From: Acidimicrobiales bacterium
GTDB taxonomy: Bacteria; Actinomycetota; Acidimicrobiia; Acidimicrobiales; Poriferisodalaceae
Reading direction: 5' to 3'
Length of the DNA stretch: 11,064 bases
NCBI GenBank assembly: GCA_020439485.1
Contig: JAGQSP010000220.1
Span: 1 to 11,064 of the forward strand
Shown: positions 1-9,609 of the stretch, piece after piece
How the letters are laid out: each line of letters starts with the position of its first letter
Position numbering within the stretch: the stretch's first letter is position 1
The notes under the pieces: generated by a model
The model's input: only the letters and a program-made list of their open reading frames with translations
Told to the model about the DNA's origin: nothing
Database searches by the model: none
Position numbers and translations under genes: made by a program

Positions 1-380
1 TACACCTGGCCAGCGATGAACAGCGCACCGAAGCTGGCGGTGGACGCCAGCCACAAGCGGGTCTGGCGGTCGTCGCCCTTCTGGATTGCCTGGACCGCAA
101 GCACCATGGTCAACGAACTCATCAGCAGCACGAACGAGCTGACCGAAGTGAACGGGATGTCGAACAGATCGCTGGCCTTGGGGCCGACGTCTATACCGAG
201 ACCGTCTGGCTTGTTGCGCAGCAACAGGTAGCTGCTGATGAGCGCCCCGAACAGGAGGCACTCGGAGCCGAGAAAGCCCCACATGGTGAGCTTCTCGTGC
301 GAAAGCCCGGTATTGGTGGGCAGATGGTCGTAGTCGTCCCAATCGGTACGGCCGTATCCGACCTGGGCCGTGTCAGTCAA
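1..380 (-). CDS. ctaE: Cytochrome c oxidase subunit III, N-terminal part (cut by window edge)
   Basis: Subunit III of the aa3/caa3 oxidase, an integral membrane subunit that carries no metal and stabilises subunit I. About 126 residues are visible and the frame runs off the left edge, so perhaps the last third is missing. The segment KLTMWGFLGSECLLFGALIS (residues 30-49) is the typical start of helix 1. Further hydrophobic helices lie near residues 78-98 and from 108 on. I place the start at a TTG (380-378) because GAGGAGGAG lies just upstream and the residues before helix 1 fit the family. An in-frame ATG at residue 33 would cut into helix 1. The start overlaps the ctaD stop by 8 nt (TTGACTGA), so the two genes are probably translationally coupled. 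The family is certain and the exact start is likely. Confidence 0.9.
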   Translation of the reverse strand, partial: MTDTAQVGYGRTDWDDYDHLPTNTGLSHEKLTMWGFLGSECLLFGALISSYLLLRNKPDGLGIDVGPKASDLFDIPFTSVSSFVLLMSSLTMVLAVQAIQKGDDRQTRLWLASTASFGALFIAGQV

Positions 381-2352
381 CGGTCTCCTCCTCGGTCTCG
401 TGCTCGGCGTGTTCGTCGTGATGGCCGGCATCAGGATCGGTTGCGGGCTCGAGAGCCCATCCATAGATGGCCGCCACGGCGATGAGACCGCCGATGACAC
501 TCAGCCACAGGTTGTAGATGACGCCCAGGCACAGGACCGGCATCGAGAACGCAAGCACGATGGGCCAATACGACGGCGAGGGCAGATGCGGGTGCTGGTC
601 GCCCTTCTGAGCGATCTCGTTGCCGTCGGCGATCTGGACCAGGACGCCGTCTTCGTTCTTCTGGTACTTCTTGTGCCACCAGTCGTCGAGCTGGGTGACG
701 ACTGGGTAGTAGTCGAAGTTGTGCTCGGGTGCGGGCGAGGGAATCGACCACTCGAGGGTGCGACCGTCCCATGGGTCGGCTGGAGCCTGGGGCACCTCGC
801 CACGGCGGTACTTCATGCTGGTGGTGAAGATGTTGAAGGCAAACACCGCCGCGGAGATGAACAGCACGATGGTGCCGATGGTGGCCACCATGTTCATCCA
901 GTCGAAGCCAAGGCCCTCGTCATAGCGGTAGGTACGACGAGCCATGCCCTGCAGCCCGAGGAAGTGCATCGGGAAGAAGGTCATGTTGAAGCCGGCGAAC
1001 ATGAGCCAGAAGTGGGTCTTGCCTAGACGCTCGTTCAGCAGGAAGCCGAACACCTTGGGCCACCAGTAGTAGACGCCGGCGAACAGGCCCATGACGCCAC
1101 CACCGAACAGCACATAGTGGAAGTGTCCGACGATGAAATAGCTGTCGGTCTGCTGGGTGTCGGATGCTGCCACCGAGTGCATGACGCCCGTGACGCCGCC
1201 CAGGGTGAACATCGACACCAGCGATATCGAGAACAACATCGCGGTGGTGAAACGTAGGTTGCCGCCCCACATGGTGGCGATCCAGTTCAGGATCTTCACG
1301 CCGGTGGGTACTGCGATGAACATCGTTGCCGCTGAGAACGCAGCCACCGATACGGGCCCCATGCCCGAGGCGAACATGTGGTGAGCCCACACACCAAAGC
1401 CCATGAAGGCGATGGCTATGCCCGAGAAGACCACGAACGAGTAGCCGAACAGGGGCTTGCGGCTGAACACCGGCAGCGTCTCGGAGATGATGCCGAAACT
1501 GGGAAGGATGATGATGTAGACCTCGGGGTGTCCGAAGATCCAGAACAGGTGCTGCCAAAGGAGCGGATCTGCGCCCTGCTCGACGTTGAAGAAGTTGGCG
1601 TCGAAGTTGCGGTCGAACACCAGGAACAGAAGCGCCACGGTGATGACCGGCAGCGAGAACAGCAGCAGGAACTGCACCACCATGATCATCCAGCAAAAGA
1701 TCGGCATGTTGCGCAGATCCATGCCAGGCGCCCGCATGTTGAGCATCGTGATGATCAGGTTGACCGAGCCGACAAGCGAGGCAACACCGGTGATCAGCAG
1801 GCCCAGGGCGTAATAGTCGACACCGTGCCCCGGGCTATAGGCCAGACCAGAGTTGGGTGCATAGCAGAACCAGCCGCAGTCGGCCCCGCCGCCCGTGAAC
1901 CAGCTGAGGTTCAAGAAGATGCCGCCGAAGACGAACAGCCACAGGCCCAGGGCGTTCATGCGGGGGAAGGCGACGTCGCGAGCGCCGATCTGCAGAGGCA
2001 CGACGTAGTTGGCGAACGCCGCCGCCAAGGGCATGACCACCAGGAACACCATGGTGGTGCCGTGCATGGTGAACAGCTGGTTGTATTCGTCGGCGGTGAG
2101 GACGGTGCCGTTTGGAACCGCCAGCTGCAGACGCACCAACAACGCCTCGATGCCGGCGATGAGGAACCAGAACATGGCTACGGCGCCGTAGAGGATGCCC
2201 AGCTTCTTGTGGTCGACTGTGAACAGCCAGCTACGCCAGCCCGTGTTGGCAGTGGGTCGGGCGAGAATGCCGATGCCACGATCGCGTGTGGGCGAGGCGG
2301 CGCCGGATTCGAGCTCGAGGATTTCTGATGGTTCCTGCTCGATTATCGCCAT
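373..2352 (-). CDS. ctaD: Cytochrome c oxidase subunit I (catalytic, aa3/caa3 type)
   Basis: Catalytic membrane subunit that reduces O2 to water and pumps protons. All expected residues are present: His97 (TMHGTT) and His412 for low-spin heme a, His410 for heme a3 (GHFH), and His275, His324 and His325 for CuB. Tyr279 is the cross-linked tyrosine in GHPEVY. Glu277 and Asp126 (D channel) and Lys353 (PTGVK, K channel) mark an A-type oxidase. At 659 residues it is longer than a minimal subunit I. The extra C-terminal part (about 525-659) has a soluble linker, two predicted helices (about 594-635) and an acidic His-rich tail (HHDEHAEHETEEE). The ATG is supported by AGGAGA about 7 nt upstream. It lies 46 nt after ctaC and overlaps ctaE. 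Confidence 0.98.
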   Translation of the reverse strand: MAIIEQEPSEILELESGAASPTRDRGIGILARPTANTGWRSWLFTVDHKKLGILYGAVAMFWFLIAGIEALLVRLQLAVPNGTVLTADEYNQLFTMHGTTMVFLVVMPLAAAFANYVVPLQIGARDVAFPRMNALGLWLFVFGGIFLNLSWFTGGGADCGWFCYAPNSGLAYSPGHGVDYYALGLLITGVASLVGSVNLIITMLNMRAPGMDLRNMPIFCWMIMVVQFLLLFSLPVITVALLFLVFDRNFDANFFNVEQGADPLLWQHLFWIFGHPEVYIIILPSFGIISETLPVFSRKPLFGYSFVVFSGIAIAFMGFGVWAHHMFASGMGPVSVAAFSAATMFIAVPTGVKILNWIATMWGGNLRFTTAMLFSISLVSMFTLGGVTGVMHSVAASDTQQTDSYFIVGHFHYVLFGGGVMGLFAGVYYWWPKVFGFLLNERLGKTHFWLMFAGFNMTFFPMHFLGLQGMARRTYRYDEGLGFDWMNMVATIGTIVLFISAAVFAFNIFTTSMKYRRGEVPQAPADPWDGRTLEWSIPSPAPEHNFDYYPVVTQLDDWWHKKYQKNEDGVLVQIADGNEIAQKGDQHPHLPSPSYWPIVLAFSMPVLCLGVIYNLWLSVIGGLIAVAAIYGWALEPATDPDAGHHDEHAEHETEEETVD

Positions 2353-2398: not shown

Positions 2399-3580
2399 TC
2401 AGGGAAGGATCGGCGCGTCGCCGAGGGTTTGGAGGTAGGCAACGATGTCTTCGACCTGGTCGACGTTCAGCTGTTCAGCGAACGAGATCATGCCCTGCTG
2501 ATTGTCGGCACGAAGGGGCTTGCGGCCAGGAGCATCCTGAACCCAAGCGACCAGATCGGCCTGATTCAGCGAACCGTCTTCGAGGTACATGTCGAAGATT
2601 CCGCCGGCAAAGCCGGTGCGGCTCATCAGGTGGGTCAGGTTCGGCGCCACACCCGAGAGCAATGGTGGCTCGTTCTCGTAGGCCGACTCGTAGACACCGT
2701 TCACGACGTGGCAGCTCGAGCAGAACTGCCCGAACAGCTGGTAGCCCCGAGCCTCGGGTGTGTCGCCCTCGAGGGCGACCTGATCGGTGGTCTGGCGAGC
2801 AAGCCACTCGTTCCAGTCGGCCTCGTCGAGAGCGACGGCCGTGAGGCGCATGTCGGCGTGCGACAAGCCGCAGTACTCGGCGCAAAGCCCGCCATAGACG
2901 CCGGGCTCGTGAGCGTGGATCTTCCAGTCGTGAACACGACCCGGCACGGCGTCTTTCTTGCCGTTGAGCTCGGGTACCCAGAAACTGTGGATCACGTCAT
3001 TGGAGGTAATCCGCAGGTTGATCTGCTGATCTGCCGGGAACACGATGTCGTTGGAGGTGACGATGTCGTAGGTGCCGTCGTTGTCCAGGTCGTAGCTGAA
3101 CTGCCACCACCACTGCTGACCCTCGACCAGGATGGTCATGTCGGTCTCGTCCTGGTCGGCCAGGGCAAACACCTTGGGCACGGACACGACCGCAACGATG
3201 ATGAGGAACACCAGCGGCACGACGGTCCAGCCGATCTCGGCCACCGAGTTGCCGTGGATCTGGCCTGGCAGATCGTCGTAGGTCTCGGGCGTACTGCGGA
3301 AGCGGAAGATTATGAAGACGACCGCTATGCCCACCAGGACAGCAACCACGATGGCGGCAATTCCGATGAAGCTCGTGACCGACCAGATGACATCGGCGTT
3401 CTCGCCGCGGGGCTTCAGGCCGTTCTGGCCGTTCTCGCCGGCGCAGGCAGACAGTGCGGCCAGCGCGCCAACGAGCAGGGCCAAGGGCGCAAACCTGCGC
3501 GTTCTCGACTTGCGGACAGGCTGAGTCACTCGGGCCAGCTCGCTCTCTGCCCCCAGGGGGCCTCGGTCGAATCGGGTCAT
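2399..3580 (-). CDS. ctaC: Cytochrome c oxidase subunit II with fused C-terminal cytochrome c domain (caa3 type)
   Basis: Electron-entry subunit, probably a lipoprotein outside the membrane. From the ATG (393 residues): a basic segment (KSRTRR, 24-29), a hydrophobic signal ending in a lipobox (LSAC, Cys46), two membrane helices (about 66-93 and 116-138), an aromatic patch (QWWWQF, 156-161), and a cupredoxin domain. CuA ligands are His198, Cys233, Glu235, Cys237, His241 and Met244 (CAEYCGLSHADM). A cytochrome c domain follows, with heme motif CSSCH (287-291) and Met364 as probable axial ligand. This makes a caa3 oxidase that needs no separate small cytochrome c bound as substrate. The ATG overlaps the upstream stop by 4 nt (ATGA). 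A GTG at 3529 would give a more typical lipoprotein signal length, so the start is uncertain by 17 residues. Confidence 0.97.
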   Translation of the reverse strand: MTRFDRGPLGAESELARVTQPVRKSRTRRFAPLALLVGALAALSACAGENGQNGLKPRGENADVIWSVTSFIGIAAIVVAVLVGIAVVFIIFRFRSTPETYDDLPGQIHGNSVAEIGWTVVPLVFLIIVAVVSVPKVFALADQDETDMTILVEGQQWWWQFSYDLDNDGTYDIVTSNDIVFPADQQINLRITSNDVIHSFWVPELNGKKDAVPGRVHDWKIHAHEPGVYGGLCAEYCGLSHADMRLTAVALDEADWNEWLARQTTDQVALEGDTPEARGYQLFGQFCSSCHVVNGVYESAYENEPPLLSGVAPNLTHLMSRTGFAGGIFDMYLEDGSLNQADLVAWVQDAPGRKPLRADNQQGMISFAEQLNVDQVEDIVAYLQTLGDAPILP

Positions 3581-4365
3581 CGCACGTTCACCACCATGAC
3601 GGCGACCCCGTCGCCGGTGAATCCGAGCGTGCTTTCTTCGGTGTGTTCTGTGTCGTCGCCGTGGTCTTCTTCGTGGTGTTCGAAGTCGCGTTCGCCTACG
3701 GCGATGGCAACAATACCGCCCACCACGACGGCCAATGCCCCGATGGCGAGGATCGACGCCATGATGGGGCCCTTGAGGTCGGGCTTGGCGTAGAAGACGA
3801 AGGCGAAGATCAGGATCGTCGTGGCCACGCCCAGGGCAAGCCAGCTCGAAGCGTTGCGGGGCAGCGCCAACAGAACCCTCGAACCCAGCAGAACAGGAAT
3901 GGCGCCGAAGAGCACGGCGTAGACGGGCACCTCGAAGGGCAGCATCACCTTGCGGCGAACGGCGTAGTTGGCGGCAGCATCGGTGGAGCGGCGGTCGGCC
4001 CAGGCCGTGATGGTCCACTCGATGGCGGCCAGCACGATCAACACGAAGCCCGCGATCGCCAAAAGCGGCGTTGCGACGAGGCCGACGATCATGACGCCCA
4101 CACCGGCCGAGGCCATGATGGGCCAATAGGCGGGTACGAGCTCGTACGCGGCTTCACGCTCGCGGTCGATCGACGGAGCGTCACCGGCTTCGAGTGACAG
4201 CCAGGCGAGGAACAGGCAAGCAGCGCCGGCTGTGCCCAGGATGATGGTTCCCGAGAAAGCGACGTCGCCCGTGCTGTTGGCGGCGGTGCCGACGCCGTAC
4301 ACCGTCGCAGCGACGATGAGCAGCAGTCCGACTCCGGCGAGGAATTTGGTGGCGGTTCCGAACAT
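3577..4365 (-). CDS. ctaF: CtaF-like oxidase subunit IV with extra C-terminal membrane domain
   Basis: Membrane protein of 262 residues with about seven predicted helices (near 8-28, 37-57, 80-98, 99-118, 143-165, 174-192, 203-223). The first ~125 residues resemble actinobacterial cytochrome c oxidase subunit IV (CtaF): an N-terminal helix ending in VYGVGT, then TGDVAFSGT, then AYWPIMASAGVG before a helix pair. As I recall, ordinary CtaF is about 140 residues with four helices, so the second half is an extension I do not recognise. It ends in a His/Asp/Glu-rich stretch (ERDFEHHEEDHGDDTEH, 225-241) and a short tail. The start lies 6 nt after the preceding stop, with AGGGA as ribosome site, and the stop overlaps ctaC (ATGA). 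The CtaF match is by pattern only. It could be a general oxidase-associated membrane protein. Confidence 0.7.
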   Translation of the reverse strand: MFGTATKFLAGVGLLLIVAATVYGVGTAANSTGDVAFSGTIILGTAGAACLFLAWLSLEAGDAPSIDREREAAYELVPAYWPIMASAGVGVMIVGLVATPLLAIAGFVLIVLAAIEWTITAWADRRSTDAAANYAVRRKVMLPFEVPVYAVLFGAIPVLLGSRVLLALPRNASSWLALGVATTILIFAFVFYAKPDLKGPIMASILAIGALAVVVGGIVAIAVGERDFEHHEEDHGDDTEHTEESTLGFTGDGVAVMVVNVR

Positions 4366-4371
4366 TGGTCC

Positions 4372-4962
4372 CTACTTGACGACGTAGACGGCGTACCAGG
4401 CTGCGCTCCAGGCCAAGACCAAGAAGTCGAGGAAGAGAGCAGATGAGGTCAAAGAGGCTGCGCCCTCGGGGCCGAGGTCGCCGCCGAGCGCTCGCATTCC
4501 CATCAACAACCAGTAGGCGAGGGAGATGAGAGTGAAGGCGATGATGACACCGGTGATGGTGAAGGCGAGGTTGTGCCATTCGCTGGTGCCGATGGCGATG
4601 TCCATGCGGTTCATCGAGAAGATGAGCATGTTCAGGAAGGCCAGGATCATCAACATCGTGGCGCCGATGGCCATGTAGGTGTGACCCCGCTCGTTGCGGT
4701 GCCCGGCCCACGCGGCCCAGTGGCCGAACAGGGCGGCCAACACGATGGTGACGACCGTCATGACCATCGGCGTGTTGGGAATTGCAACGTCGTCTGGCAA
4801 CCAGTTGTGGCCCGGATCGACGACGGCGTGGCGCCGGCTCATGTAGAACGCCAGCAGCCCGGCCATGAGGCTCGAGGCCGCAACGACGGCCAGCGACGTC
4901 GCTACTAGTTGGGTGCGGGGGGCGGTGCGCATGCCCGGCACAGCCATGGCGGTGTCGGCCAT
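4372..4962 (-). CDS. Cytochrome c oxidase subunit III-like membrane protein (second copy)
   Basis: A 196-residue protein with five predicted helices (about 20-40, 66-86, 97-115, 129-155, 173-193), the layout of the short five-helix form of heme-copper oxidase subunit III. The last helix (ALFLDFLVLAWSAAWYAVYV, 175-194) matches the usual subunit III ending of an aromatic/Asp helix. The segment EWHNLAFTITGVIIAF occupies the place of the usual glycine/histidine helix but lacks the usual HGLH-type motif, so the copy is diverged. It is distinct from the true ctaE at the end of the same operon. Its ATG shares one base with the stop of the upstream subunit I-like gene (TGATG), and AGGAGG lies 9 nt before the start, so coupling is likely. 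It most plausibly pairs with the ligand-free subunit I-like protein. Confidence 0.8.
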   Translation of the reverse strand: MADTAMAVPGMRTAPRTQLVATSLAVVAASSLMAGLLAFYMSRRHAVVDPGHNWLPDDVAIPNTPMVMTVVTIVLAALFGHWAAWAGHRNERGHTYMAIGATMLMILAFLNMLIFSMNRMDIAIGTSEWHNLAFTITGVIIAFTLISLAYWLLMGMRALGGDLGPEGAASLTSSALFLDFLVLAWSAAWYAVYVVK

Positions 4963-6614
4963 CAGACTCCGACCTCCTGTTCTTCACGAGCGTCAAGTAG
5001 TGGCGTGCCAGACGCCAAGGCGGGCAGACCCATTTCGGACTCCCACTCGGGGGTGAATGCTTCCCACGGGTTGTCGCCCGCTTCGGGACCCTTCTTCAAG
5101 AAGATCGACACCACCACGTTCAGCAACATGACGGCAGCTCCGGCGGCCACGAGGATCGTGCCCAGAGCTGCGATGGTGTTGAAGGCCTCGCTGGGATCTT
5201 CCAGACCCGAGTAGATCGAGTTGGTGAAAGGCCCGCCGGGCTGGCCCGACACGATTCCGGCCAACACGCTGCCCAGGGCGGCCACGATGGCGCCGGCACC
5301 GATGGCCAAAGCGGCGAGGAACCCGGGACCGGCCATGGTCTTGCGGCCGCAGATTATGGGCGCCCACCAGGTATGGGCAGCAAGTGCACCCGCCGCGCCC
5401 GCGCCGAGGACCAGCAGCTGGAAAGCCGCCGTGTTCCAGGTGGTGAACCTGAGCGCAATCGCAGGATCCATGTCGAAGGCATTGACCGACTCGAGCCAGT
5501 CGAGAAGGGCGCCCGCTACGGCGACTGCAGCTGCCAGCAGCACCATGACCGAAGCGATCAGGGCGCTGAACGCCGGGCCCGACTTGGGAATGCGCTTGGA
5601 AGCGGCGACGGTGATGATGTTCAGCATCACGGCGATGAAGATGCCGAGGCCCGCACCGGCTATGAAGCCCAGGTACACGATGCCCTGCCAGCCGTCGGCG
5701 ACCTTGTTGCCCTCGACCCCGCCGAGCTGGGCCCAGGCGCCGATGCCGAAGACGCCAACTGCGCCGACACCCGCCGTGGCTATGGCTCCTGCGACCACGC
5801 GCCGACCGGCTGTGACAGGCAGGATCTCGCCGATCACACCCAGCACGGGGACGATGAACAGGAACAGTTGCGGGGTGCGGTAGACCCACTCGATGTGTTG
5901 CCATATCCCGGCGTTGCCGCCGAGGAAGTCGAAGTCGAAACGCGTGCTGTAGCGGTGATCGATGTACAGCAGCGCCAGGTTGGCCAACAGGACCGGCATC
6001 GAAAGCAGCAGGCCGATCGCGGTTACCAGGCTCGCCCAGCTGAAGGCGGGCAGTTGGTCCATGTGCAGCCCTGGCGCCCTCATCGAGAAGATCGTCGTGG
6101 CAACCGTTATCGCCCCGAGCAACAGGGCGGTGATGACCGTGCCCAAGGCGATCAGGTGCAGGTCGACGCCCTCGCTGTCGAGGCGGGTGCCTCCGAACGG
6201 ACCACCGTTGGCGAGGTAGGCGCCCACCAGGGCGACAGCGCCGAACATCCAGGTCCAAAACGATGCCAACGCCGCACGGGGGAAGGCCAGGCGACCGGCT
6301 CCGATCTGCAACGGCACGACGTTGATCGCCAACCCCAGGAAGAACGGCACCAGGAACAAGAACACGAAGCCATCACGTGTCAGGGCATAGGCCTGTGCCC
6401 AGGTGGACTCGTCGAGCACCACGAAGCCGTCAGAGCTCGTGAGGTCGAGTCGCACGAGCACCTCGAGAACAAGGGTGGCGACCAGCACCATCGTCGAGAC
6501 GACCATGAACATCCGCCCGATGCGGCGGTGGTCGGTCGTGTTGATCAGACCGAGCAGGCTCGGATCCTCCGATGGCGGAGGCGGAAGCTCGGTCTGTGGG
6601 GCAGATTCGGTCAT
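4962..6614 (-). CDS. Heme-copper oxidase subunit I-like protein lacking all metal ligands
   Basis: A 550-residue protein of about twelve or more helices, clearly a homologue of subunit I. Shared landmarks with CtaD include TTDHRRIG (26-33), VVPLQIGA (99-106), AFPR (110-113), FSMRAPG (176-182) and IWQHIEW (237-243). By-eye alignment to the CtaD in this window shows every catalytic residue replaced: His97 to Thr79, Asp126 to Arg108, His275 to Thr247, Glu277 to Gln249, Tyr279 to Phe251, His324 to Gln296, His325 to Leu297, Lys353 to Ile325, His410 to Ala396 and His412 to Phe398. It should bind neither heme a, heme a3 nor CuB at those sites. The frame is intact, with the same high-GC codon style as its neighbours, so it is a maintained gene rather than decay. 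It is first in the operon and has no strong ribosome site. A structural or assembly role is my inference. Confidence 0.9.
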   Translation of the reverse strand: MTESAPQTELPPPPSEDPSLLGLINTTDHRRIGRMFMVVSTMVLVATLVLEVLVRLDLTSSDGFVVLDESTWAQAYALTRDGFVFLFLVPFFLGLAINVVPLQIGAGRLAFPRAALASFWTWMFGAVALVGAYLANGGPFGGTRLDSEGVDLHLIALGTVITALLLGAITVATTIFSMRAPGLHMDQLPAFSWASLVTAIGLLLSMPVLLANLALLYIDHRYSTRFDFDFLGGNAGIWQHIEWVYRTPQLFLFIVPVLGVIGEILPVTAGRRVVAGAIATAGVGAVGVFGIGAWAQLGGVEGNKVADGWQGIVYLGFIAGAGLGIFIAVMLNIITVAASKRIPKSGPAFSALIASVMVLLAAAVAVAGALLDWLESVNAFDMDPAIALRFTTWNTAAFQLLVLGAGAAGALAAHTWWAPIICGRKTMAGPGFLAALAIGAGAIVAALGSVLAGIVSGQPGGPFTNSIYSGLEDPSEAFNTIAALGTILVAAGAAVMLLNVVVSIFLKKGPEAGDNPWEAFTPEWESEMGLPALASGTPLLDAREEQEVGV

Positions 6615-6822: not shown

Positions 6823-7749
6823 TCACAAGCCACCCCTCACGAGGACGTCGACGGCCATCGCCGCGAACACCACTGTGACATACGTGATGGAGTATCCGAA
6901 CACCTTCATGGCCCGACGGGCCGACAGGTCGCTCAAGAGCCTGACCGTGTGCCACATGAACACGGCGCCCGCCGCAACCGCGGCGACGGCATATATGGGC
7001 CCCAAACCCGCCAGCGGACCGAACGCGACACCCGAAACCACCACGGGCACCGTGTAGACGATCATCTGCACGGCGGTGGACTTCGCCGATGCAACTGCGG
7101 GCAGCATCGGGACGTCGGCGCTGCGATAGTCCTCGGCGTACTTGATGGCAAGCGCCCAGAAATGGGGCGGCGTCCACATGAACATCAAGAAGAACAACAA
7201 CCACGCTTCGGCTGGCAACGAATTGTCGATTGCGGCCCAGCCGACCAGCACGGGAACAGCACCCGCCGCACCGCCGATGACGATGTTCTGCTTGGAGGTG
7301 CGCTTGAGCCAGATCGTGTAGACGATCACGTAGAACAAGCACGCCGACAACGCCAACACCGCCGACAACAAGTTGACGGTGGTGGCCAGCAACACGAAAG
7401 CCGCGACCTCGATTGCGGTGGCGAAGACGAGGGCCTCGCGTGGCGAAACCTCGCCGGTGACGAGCGGACGTCCCTTGGTGCGCTCCATGAGGGCGTCTAT
7501 GTCGCGATCGACGTACATGTTGTAGGCGTTGGCGCCGCCGGCCGAAAGGGCGCCTCCGACGAAGGTCGCGATCATGAGCCACACCGAGGGCAGCCCGTCC
7601 TCGGCGACGATCATGGTGGGAATCGTCGTGACGAGCAGCAGTTCGACGATTCGCGGCTTGGTCAGCGCAACAAATGCCAGCGCGCGCGGCCGAACACGCC
7701 CGGTGCCGGGACGCGACGGAGCGTGGGGGGTGGCGCTTACGTCGGTCAC
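6823..7749 (-). CDS. ctaB: Protoheme IX farnesyltransferase (heme O synthase)
   Basis: Membrane prenyltransferase of the UbiA family that attaches a farnesyl group to heme B to give heme O, the first step to heme A. The 308-residue protein has the first Asp-rich motif NMYVDRDID (77-85, Asn77, Asp81, Asp85) followed by ALMERTKGRPL, and the second conserved loop YAEDYRSADVPMLP (204-217) after the MWTPPHFWALAI helix. About nine membrane helices are predicted, the normal layout and length. The start is a GTG at 7749 and no ribosome site is visible. A TATCGT box ends 7 nt upstream, so the mRNA may be leaderless. It sits divergent to ctaA and upstream of the oxidase operon, as expected for an oxidase assembly gene. 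Confidence 0.97.
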   Translation of the reverse strand: MTDVSATPHAPSRPGTGRVRPRALAFVALTKPRIVELLLVTTIPTMIVAEDGLPSVWLMIATFVGGALSAGGANAYNMYVDRDIDALMERTKGRPLVTGEVSPREALVFATAIEVAAFVLLATTVNLLSAVLALSACLFYVIVYTIWLKRTSKQNIVIGGAAGAVPVLVGWAAIDNSLPAEAWLLFFLMFMWTPPHFWALAIKYAEDYRSADVPMLPAVASAKSTAVQMIVYTVPVVVSGVAFGPLAGLGPIYAVAAVAAGAVFMWHTVRLLSDLSARRAMKVFGYSITYVTVVFAAMAVDVLVRGGL

Positions 7750-7878: not shown

Positions 7879-8820
7879 ATGAACGTGTCACGATCGACGA
7901 GCCACCCCGACCAACTGGTGAAGTTCCGGCGCTGGGCCACGGCCTCGCTGGTGACGCTGGTCGCAGTGATCTTCACGGGCGCCGGTGTGAGGTTGAGCGG
8001 TTCGGGCTTGGGATGCTCTAACTGGCCCACTTGCACCGAGACGTCGCTGGTTCCCGAGGCCGACATCCACGGCGTCATCGAATACGCCAATCGTCTGTTC
8101 AGCTTCGTGATCGTTGCGGCATGCATCGGAACCCTGGTTCTCGCCCGCCGGATGTCGCCACGTCAGCCCGGATTTGTCGCCAAGTCGTGGTGGATCATCG
8201 TCTTCGTGTTGGCCAACGCCGTACTGGGTGGCATCACGGTGCTGTGGGATCTCGCTCCGAGCATGGTGATGGGCCACTACCTGCTGACCCTTGTACCCAT
8301 AGCGTTGGCAACCATGCTGGTCGTGCAATCGACCCATCTGATCGAGGGGTCTGCTGACGTGCCCATCGCCGCGCCGCGGGCCCGCTTCCTGGTGGCCGCT
8401 ACCGCTGCCTGGACCTGTGTGATCTTGTTCCTGGGCACCGTGGTCACGGCCGCAGGGCCCCACGCAGGCGACGAGACCGCCGAGCGCCTCGACGTCTCGC
8501 TCCGCTGGGCGGCCAGGCTCCACGCCTCGAGCGTGTGGGTGCTGATCGCTCTGCTGATAGTCACCTGGCTCAGTCTCGACGCGGCCACCGACAGGGGCGA
8601 GCAGGTCTCGGCCGTGAAACGCACGGTCAGGTGGCTGGTGATCTCGTCGGTGGCACAGGGAACACTGGGTTACATCCAGTACTTCACGGGCACGCCGGCG
8701 GCCCTGGCCGCGGTTCACGTAGCGATCTCGGGCGTGATATTCACCATCGCCGTGCGACTCGCCATGCACGCCGCGGCGTCGGTTGACGTCTCCGAACGCG
8801 AGTTGTCGGCCGCTCGATGA
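7879..8820 (+). CDS. ctaA: Heme A synthase (COX15/CtaA family)
   Basis: Membrane enzyme that oxidises a methyl of heme O to a formyl group, giving heme A for CtaD. The 313-residue product has eight predicted helices. Candidate heme ligands are His133 (GHYLL), His215 (ARLHASS) and His280 (AVHVAIS). A conserved cysteine pair, Cys46 and Cys52 ([10 protein letters not shown]), lies in the first outer loop. The position of the first family histidine reads EYANR (Glu68, Asn71), so Asn replaces His. As I recall, this is usual in actinobacterial CtaA. I chose the ATG at 7879 because the protein then begins just before helix 1. No good ribosome site is present. The frame stays open far upstream only as a shadow of ctaB. 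The gene ends with a 4-nt overlap with clpS. Confidence 0.95.
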
Positions 8821-9119
8821 TGCCGGTGGGTTCGACGTCGACCACGCCTGTTCGCGAAGGCGACACCGGCACCGACGTCGAAGAGGACGTTCCGTGGGTG
8901 GTCATCGTCTGGAACGATCCCATCAACTTGATGGGATACGTCGTGATGGTGTTCCAGAAGCTGTTCGGCTACTCGCGCGAGAAGGCGACCATGCTGATGC
9001 TCGACGTTCACGAAAAGGGCCGCGCGGTGGTTTCGAACGGCACCCGGTTCGAGGCCGAACGCGATGTGTTTCGGCTGCACGAATACGGGCTGTGGGCAAC
9101 CATGCAGCAGGACAAGTGA
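8817..9119 (+). CDS. clpS: ATP-dependent Clp protease adaptor ClpS
   Basis: Small cytoplasmic adaptor that brings N-degron proteins to the Clp unfoldase. The 100-residue length is typical: a flexible acidic N-terminus (to about 26), then the core [20 protein letters not shown] (29-48), LFGYSREKA, and [13 protein letters not shown]. Pocket residues Asn33, Asp34, Met39 and His65 are present, so binding of N-terminal residues is likely intact. Two ATG codons stand in tandem at 8817 and 8820. The first overlaps the ctaA stop by 4 nt (ATGA), and there is no separate ribosome site, which suggests translational coupling to ctaA. The DUF2017 gene follows at once, an arrangement common in Actinobacteria. 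Confidence 0.96.
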
Positions 9120-9120
9120 C

Positions 9121-9609
9121 GTGGGGCTTTTCAACCGGCGCCGCATCAAGCGCACATCGTCTGGGGTGAACTTCGACATCACCCCGGACGAACGCGACCT
9201 CATCGCCCACCTGATTCCACAACTGCGCGACCTGTTGGTCGACGTGGCTCCTACAGGCCATGTCGACGAGGCCGTTCGCAGGCTGTTTCCCACAGCGCAC
9301 GCAGAAGACCCCGACCTCGACCTCGAGTTTCAGGCGAGTTCCAGAGACCGCCTGTTGGCGGCGAGACTCGATCGCCTCGACCTGGTGGAGGCGACGGTCA
9401 GGAACGAACGCCTCAGCTTCGAGCAACACGAGGCGTGGATAGCGGCCATCAACGACATCCGCCTGGTGTTGGGCACGCGACTCGACGTCAGCGAGGACGA
9501 CGACCCAGATCAGCTCGATCCAGAAGACCCCACCGACGCCGCGGTCGCCATGTATCACTACCTCGGGTTTCTCCTGGGCGAGCTACTCGACGCATCCGAG
9601 TACGCCTGA
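9121..9609 (+). CDS. DUF2017 family protein
   Basis: Soluble, mostly helical protein of 162 residues from a GTG start one base after the clpS stop. It fits the DUF2017 family, which is usually encoded just after clpS in Actinobacteria: a basic N-terminus (LFNRRRIKR), a middle RRLFPTAHAEDPDLDLEF segment, and a C-terminal part with AAINDIRLVLGTRLDVSEDD and AMYHYLGFLLGELL. I see no catalytic motif, and the function of the family is not established as far as I know. Its fixed position beside ClpS hints at a role linked to N-degron proteolysis, but that is inference. An ATG at 9064 in the same frame would overlap clpS by 56 nt and add an unrelated Cys-rich leader, so I reject it. Confidence 0.88.
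   Translation: MGLFNRRRIKRTSSGVNFDITPDERDLIAHLIPQLRDLLVDVAPTGHVDEAVRRLFPTAHAEDPDLDLEFQASSRDRLLAARLDRLDLVEATVRNERLSFEQHEAWIAAINDIRLVLGTRLDVSEDDDPDQLDPEDPTDAAVAMYHYLGFLLGELLDASEYA

Follow-up and report, generated by a model that had tools for sequence, protein, structure and literature searches.

Why an oxidase operon should hold, beside its catalytic subunit I, a second subunit I homologue from which the residues of the chemistry have gone is the question raised by a contig of an Acidimicrobiales bacterium. The window, by which we mean the whole stretch of DNA that was analysed, is 11,064 nt long. The homologue, here called PS, carries neither heme nor CuB ligands and is encoded at 4962..6614 on the minus strand, in 550 codons with an ATG start. 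On the same strand it is preceded by CtaB (heme O synthase, 6823..7749), the first gene of the conserved order, and followed by C3L, a degenerate subunit III of 196 aa (4372..4962), M262 (3577..4365), with a CtaF-like N-terminal half and a three-helix part but here no blue-copper domain, CtaC (2399..3580), a caa3-type subunit II that has a CuA motif and a cytochrome c fused to it, CtaD (373..2352), the catalytic subunit I with every ligand present and a fused CtaF part, and CtaE (1..500, start approximate), a subunit III cut by the contig end. The start of C3L overlaps the PS stop (TGATG) and that of CtaC overlaps the M262 stop (ATGA), which suggests coupled translation. Divergent from the operon is a putative heme A synthase (7879..8820, plus strand), which we take to be CtaA from its position and the appearance of its sequence.

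PS is a genuine member of the COX1 family, matching PF00115 with 132.3 bits (cut-off 34.8) over residues 31-295. The CtaD equivalog model TIGR02891 is also hit (E 2.4e-59), but at 201.3 bits against a curated cut-off of 670.75. A confident and complete predicted model contains the 12 long helices of the subunit I fold; this structural match is global, and the ligands were mapped by sequence and profile alignment. When PS was compared with CtaD of the same contig by MAFFT multiple alignment and by hhalign profile-profile alignment, the two agreed on every ligand column. None of the six His ligands remains: H97, H275, H324, H325, H410 and H412 of CtaD correspond to T79, T247, Q296, L297, A397 and Q399 of PS, the assignment of each His to its cofactor being one that we presume from known aa3 enzymes. 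Neither the cross-linked Tyr (Y279 to F251) nor the A-type proton channel residues are found, with E277 changed to Q249, K353 to A328 and N115 to I97; within the GARDVAFPRMN stretch of CtaD the D and N are R and A in PS. T350 is replaced by I325 and R472/R473 by P459/G460. Six His are retained (29, 153, 184, 220, 240 and 414), none of them in a ligand column. PMC3084760 gives six His as the expected ligands of heme-copper oxidases. As judged from its sequence, PS is a catalytically dead homologue of subunit I.

A preliminary description of the window had claimed that PS is a true subunit I homologue in which all heme, copper and proton-channel residues are replaced, and that these losses are not alignment slips. 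Both claims hold in the two kinds of alignment, in which no ligand position of the window PS is occupied by His. The constant offset of 28 that it reported between the two proteins applies to WQH, HPEVY and HH but breaks down at the K-channel site, where the offset is 25; three extra residues precede that site in both alignments, and Lys is absent at either offset.

Two neighbours of PS, to which the preliminary description had drawn no attention, are degenerate subunits as well. The C3L of the window has no Pfam match of its own, yet 46 of 48 family members match PF00510 at E <= 0.01, the family profile finds COX3 chains in the PDB down to 6.5e-25, and hhalign relates C3L to CtaE with E 1.9e-20. 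M262 of the window likewise has no match of its own to the subunit IV Pfam family, PF12270; 7 of its 51 family members do match it at E <= 0.01, and the M262 of locus L130 scores 23.2 bits against a cut-off of 26.9. The M262 profile retrieves CtaF chains from the PDB (E 4.7e-5 to 2.1e-4), and hhalign aligns it with the CtaF part of CtaD at 96% probability over 46 columns, while no link to CtaC or to CtaE was found by hhalign. A predicted model of M262 (pLDDT 80, pTM 0.57) gave nothing at E <= 0.001 in Foldseek, the best match being the CtaF chain 7q21_F at E 0.23, so the CtaF assignment rests on the sequence profiles. Compared with CtaF, M262 carries the three-helix part as an extra fusion, and its C-terminal half has a homologue in other parts of the phylum, a membrane-anchored cupredoxin; in early-branching members M262 still contains the cupredoxin domain. 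With C3L resembling subunit III and M262 subunit IV, the operon holds a second, dead set of subunits I, III and IV, so that these three are doubled and subunit II is single. We refer to PS, C3L and M262 together as the module.

One account of such a set would be a duplicate decaying without function. All of its catalytic residues have been lost, one broken PS copy is known (L258 in genome G667, near a contig end), and PS evolves faster than CtaD in 12 of 12 pairs, which is consistent with decay and speaks against a structural role. However, the PS frame is intact and longer than 480 aa in every one of the 132 distinct loci that also carry CtaB and M262, a set outside which the broken copy falls. 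By the Nei-Gojobori method, 15 pairs were compared, of which 12 gave finite dS and three were saturated. In the 12, dN/dS of PS ranged from 0.09 to 0.51, the maximum being that of the window against L204 (dS 1.04), and dN/dS of CtaD from 0.02 to 0.30, below PS in each; reading frames were taken mechanically, and some overlong N-termini distort single values (C3L of L100/L110, several CtaB). Values below 1 in every usable pair indicate that purifying selection acts on PS, and the selection that the preliminary description had read from the open frame is borne out; dN/dS near 1 with frequent frameshifts in relatives, an outcome that it had named as refuting, did not occur. The fold is complete, and the operon place is fixed through deep branches. 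Intact frames, dN/dS below 1 and two agreeing alignments dispose of the pseudogene and alignment-slip explanations, and decay, which these results contradict, is hardly tenable.

Conservation within PS is uneven. Among the 106 members that lack the heme a ligand pair, 42 positions are at least 85% conserved, including P101, R113, R179 and a C-terminal S..PLLD stretch, and helices 1-5 (0.52-0.58) are better conserved than helices 7-12 (0.40-0.45); CtaD shows no such trend.

The module is widespread in the order Acidimicrobiales and absent from part of it. Upstream sequence of 5 kb or more is available for 108 of the 130 distinct CtaD loci of this type in the order; every one of the 108 carries the module, and 102 show the exact order CtaB-PS-C3L-M262-CtaC-CtaD. 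A contig scan with PS itself as query found no relative. The scan with CtaD returned 272 matches, and of the best 80 of these, fetched via CtaD alone, the 56 with 5 kb upstream all contain the module, so the association was not produced by selecting on PS. By a hand tally, at least 167 of 248 genomes of the order hold the module or its third gene, M262. This comprises 160 counted as module carriers by a C3L match alone (E < 1e-32) and, from the other 88 genomes, G656, G675, G691 and G667 (the broken copy), in which PS was read, and G654, G678 and G690, in which only the third gene was seen. In a sample of 396 genomes from the phylum, all strong full-length third-gene matches among those listed belong to the same order; metagenome-assembled genomes labelled Ilumatobacter, Acidimicrobiaceae and Candidatus Microthrix carry the gene, labels that point to Acidimicrobiales as the order. 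None of 893 plasmid records contained a match covering 80% of PS, and the five listed are annotated ctaD.

Elsewhere in the phylum, neither PS nor C3L was seen at any of 19 loci, with 0 to 3.4 kb of sequence in view upstream of CtaC. CtaD is present in 17 of these loci, and in all 17 it is adjoined by a cupredoxin gene; the cupredoxin gene adjoins CtaE in L191 and stands alone on a short contig in L186. These cupredoxins (L184-L202), membrane-anchored, encoded near ctaCDE and about 215 aa long in several cases, gave, for those scanned, general cupredoxin-type matches only in Pfam and NCBIfam. Although homologous to the C-terminal half of M262, they are mostly separate genes with no dead subunit I or III beside them, and in the window the copper domain has been lost.

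How the module reached its present state can be followed in its relatives, a point that, like its spread across the order, goes beyond the preliminary description. We examined 133 PS sequences: that of the window, 99 of 108 first-round copies that passed a similarity and length filter, and 33 later ones longer than 480 aa and taken without a similarity filter; some are close relatives, so the counts are of non-independent events. Four copies found later (L254, L255, L257 and L258) and the partial L234 and L240 stand outside this set. Never is more than one CuB His retained, and one is retained in only 4 of the 133. All three heme ligands, the heme a pair and that of heme a3, persist in 10, the heme a pair without the a3 ligand in 17, and the pair is missing in 106. 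The four later copies have no His at any CuB column; L255 retains the heme a pair, the broken L258 may do so, and L254 and L257 lack it.

In a tree rooted on CtaD and computed with the ligand columns removed, the PS that keep heme ligands form the early branches (f21; f8, f11 and kin; f126; L076). PS and CtaD each form a single clade (SH-aLRT 100 each), share the same earliest branches, and in both trees the nearest row to the window is L096, an agreement that argues for joint vertical descent. The trees are of a quick type with SH-aLRT support only and long PS branches, and the placement of PS among A-type oxidases is not settled by them. At least three changes are needed for the heme a pair and six for the a3 His, so the losses recurred; in L229 and L233 the heme a pair disappeared within an early clade. 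The order of cofactor loss visible on the tree is CuB first, heme a3 second and heme a last, blue copper going alongside it. The blue-copper motif, a pattern in the last 60 residues of the third protein, was looked for in the 132 loci with a third gene. It is found in all 10 PS loci with heme a and a3 ligands, in 11 of 17 with the heme a pair only, and in one of 105 without the pair, namely L229; L224 at least is truncated by the contig end, and its missing motif is uninformative. This matching distribution indicates that the retention and the loss of heme a largely coincided with those of blue copper, and suggests a former electron path.

Early relatives, with 10 retaining the heme a and a3 His, 17 the heme a pair, and the copper motif present in 21 of these 27, do look redox-active, and the module of the window organism could by extension still be a redox device working through non-standard ligands. 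We consider this highly improbable. PS of the window has no His at the ligand places, its M262 ends without a cupredoxin domain, and of the 105 loci that have a third gene but lack the heme a pair, L229 alone keeps the copper motif.

A further suggestion takes its cue from the site vacated by CuB. At the three CuB positions early PS typically have R...AG (f8, f11) or Y...SE (f21), and where the heme a pair is missing (106 PS), Gln occupies the first of them in 72 cases and the second in 87, against a mean modal frequency of 0.48 in helix 6 and 0.43 in helix 7. The former site might then be a Gln-lined polar cavity for water, ions or a small molecule, and PS a regulator or a membrane path, which we regard as improbable. 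The window PS has Gln at one of these two positions only (T247, Q296), and channel residues have been lost throughout, Lys at the K-channel site being present in 0 of 133, the D-channel Asp in 4 and the Glu in 11. A role as proton pump is rejected on the same absence, and the proton path proposed in the preliminary description finds no support.

A structural or assembly partner of the true oxidase, also named in that description, is the best reading of PS, so that of its overall interpretation the selection on an intact dead subunit I stands and the proton path does not. We propose, with a probability of roughly 0.55, that PS, C3L and M262 form a dead protomer, a structural part in or on the working caa3 oxidase complex. 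Such a pseudo-oxidase protomer of subunits I, III and IV, without a subunit II, would be made together with the caa3 oxidase CtaC-CtaD/F-CtaE and most likely built into that complex, a membership that we guess from the place of PS in the operon and the conservation of that place. It might there render a structural service, for example as one half of a dimer or by providing the contact with a cytochrome bc complex, though scaffold role and docking partner alike are inferred. The module would have originated as an A-type oxidase set in which CuB was lost first, passed through a stage as a redox module with blue copper and heme a, and later lost both in the majority of lineages, with the body of the protein retained. 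Besides the faster evolution of PS, it counts against a structural role that CtaD of the same type works without the module elsewhere in the phylum, and that part of the order lacks the module.

Which complex might be docked is suggested by the respiratory genes of module carriers. We compared 60 genomes (54 families): 40 with the module, 36 of them recognised by strong C3L matches together with G656, G667, G675 and G678, and 20 with neither a strong M262 match nor two adjacent COX1 matches on a contig. A high-scoring split cytochrome b, defined as a PF13631 match of at least 127 bits ending near position 125-138, is present in 39 of the 40 and in none of the 20, counts that ignore kinship; the exception, G678 (88% complete), has module genes without split b. 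At the loci read, the split b is accompanied by a separate petD-like gene (L241, L253), a Rieske protein (L246, L251, L253) and a cytochrome c (L246, L253). Against a link between module and split b stands, besides G678 and kinship, a second and weaker match (32-65 bits) to cytochrome b, different in kind, in 17 of the 20 non-module genomes; six such loci were viewed, and L264 and L268 show a cytochrome b-like gene of 220-271 aa with a neighbour. SURF1 is skewed like split b, with 29 of 40 against 0 of 20, so several respiratory genes travel together. Alternative complex III was considered as a partner and discarded, ActD (PF11821) being above cut-off in 0 of the 60 genomes.

A more specific form of the proposal, possible though unlikely, is an asymmetric oxidase of one live and one dead protomer, the dead half having changed from an electron relay into a cofactor-free scaffold to the split-b cytochrome bc complex. 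An O2-inactive relay from blue copper to heme a, without CuB, would persist in early branches such as L047, L074 and L084, and the scaffold would link the oxidase to the split-b (b6-like) complex, replacing the usual bcc-aa3 contact. Rather unlikely is a role for PS in assembly, in which it would take the place of CtaD during biogenesis and hold heme A or nascent subunits, the heme-less forms holding subunits only. The PS gene directly follows ctaB, with ctaA divergent, early PS retain bis-His heme a ligands, and SURF1 has no match in 11 of the 40 module genomes, including the early-branching G138, G660, G225, G671 and G674. Heme a ligands are kept in 27 of the 133 PS and absent from that of the window. 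Against an assembly role, 106 of the 133 have been maintained although they lack the heme a pair. Replacement of SURF1 by PS was rejected, the skew of SURF1 towards module genomes being opposite to what replacement would give, and the heme-keeping G079, G658, G662 and G196 possess SURF1 as well. Taken as explanations of PS, a heme A chaperone, a polar path and decay are all weaker than the structural role.

Relative to A-type subunit I (CtaD/CoxA, PF00115, TIGR02891), PS is set apart by the missing heme a, heme a3 and CuB ligands, Tyr and tested channel residues; C3L and the N-terminal half of M262 are homologous to subunits III (PF00510) and IV (CtaF, PF12270), respectively. In cytochrome bd, also a terminal oxidase, the subunit CydB is related to the catalytic subunit but contains no heme. 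The idea of a cofactor-free partner would be alike, although CydB belongs to another protein superfamily and the partnership of PS is inferred. The actinobacterial bcc-aa3 supercomplex, solved structures of which are among the fold matches of PS, likewise pairs an A-type oxidase that includes subunit IV with a cytochrome bc complex. We know of no dead second oxidase unit in it, and, unlike it, module genomes have split cytochrome b, either in place of full-length QcrB or in addition to it. No publication on a protein like PS was evident among the matches listed by a literature search outside which most subscription papers and preprints lay. According to PMC3084760, a published oxidase classifier discarded sequences without six His, so the PS family can be missed there.

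Many lineages have retained PS, an oxidase subunit I, after all its chemistry was gone, and living intermediates are present. An intact dead copy in the operon after stepwise loss of its sites suggests retention as a building part, not as an enzyme, and the family is a testable case of a redox enzyme core becoming a structural part. It also provides natural CuB-less and heme a-only versions of the fold, and plain counts of COX1 genes would overstate the oxidases of these bacteria.

Several smaller observations were made at these loci. The usual CtaA motif is EY.HR, and that of the window CtaA (7879-8820, plus strand) reads EYANR. An H60N substitution is listed for Acidimicrobiaceae CtaA in PMC8239418, so that here, too, a heme ligand may be missing from the heme A synthase of the group. 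Contig C698 (L241) holds a further COX1 at 1-1606 (minus strand), cut at the contig end and accompanied by a short CtaC-like gene, with split cytochrome b genes about 3 kb away (4462-5860, plus strand); contig C440 (L242) has full-length QcrB, CtaC and CtaD. The L241/L242 genome contains several oxidases. The neighbour of the divergent cytochrome b-like gene in L264 and L268, from non-module genomes, encodes a membrane-like protein of 316-317 aa. About 5 kb separate M262 and CtaC in L084 and L230 (f21 genomes), and in L084 this stretch contains genes that by eye resemble a metal ABC transporter and a Fur-type regulator. At 8817-9609 of the window (plus strand), ClpS adjoins a DUF2017 protein weakly similar to the oxidative stress regulator AosR, and the same pair is found near CtaB in many related loci.
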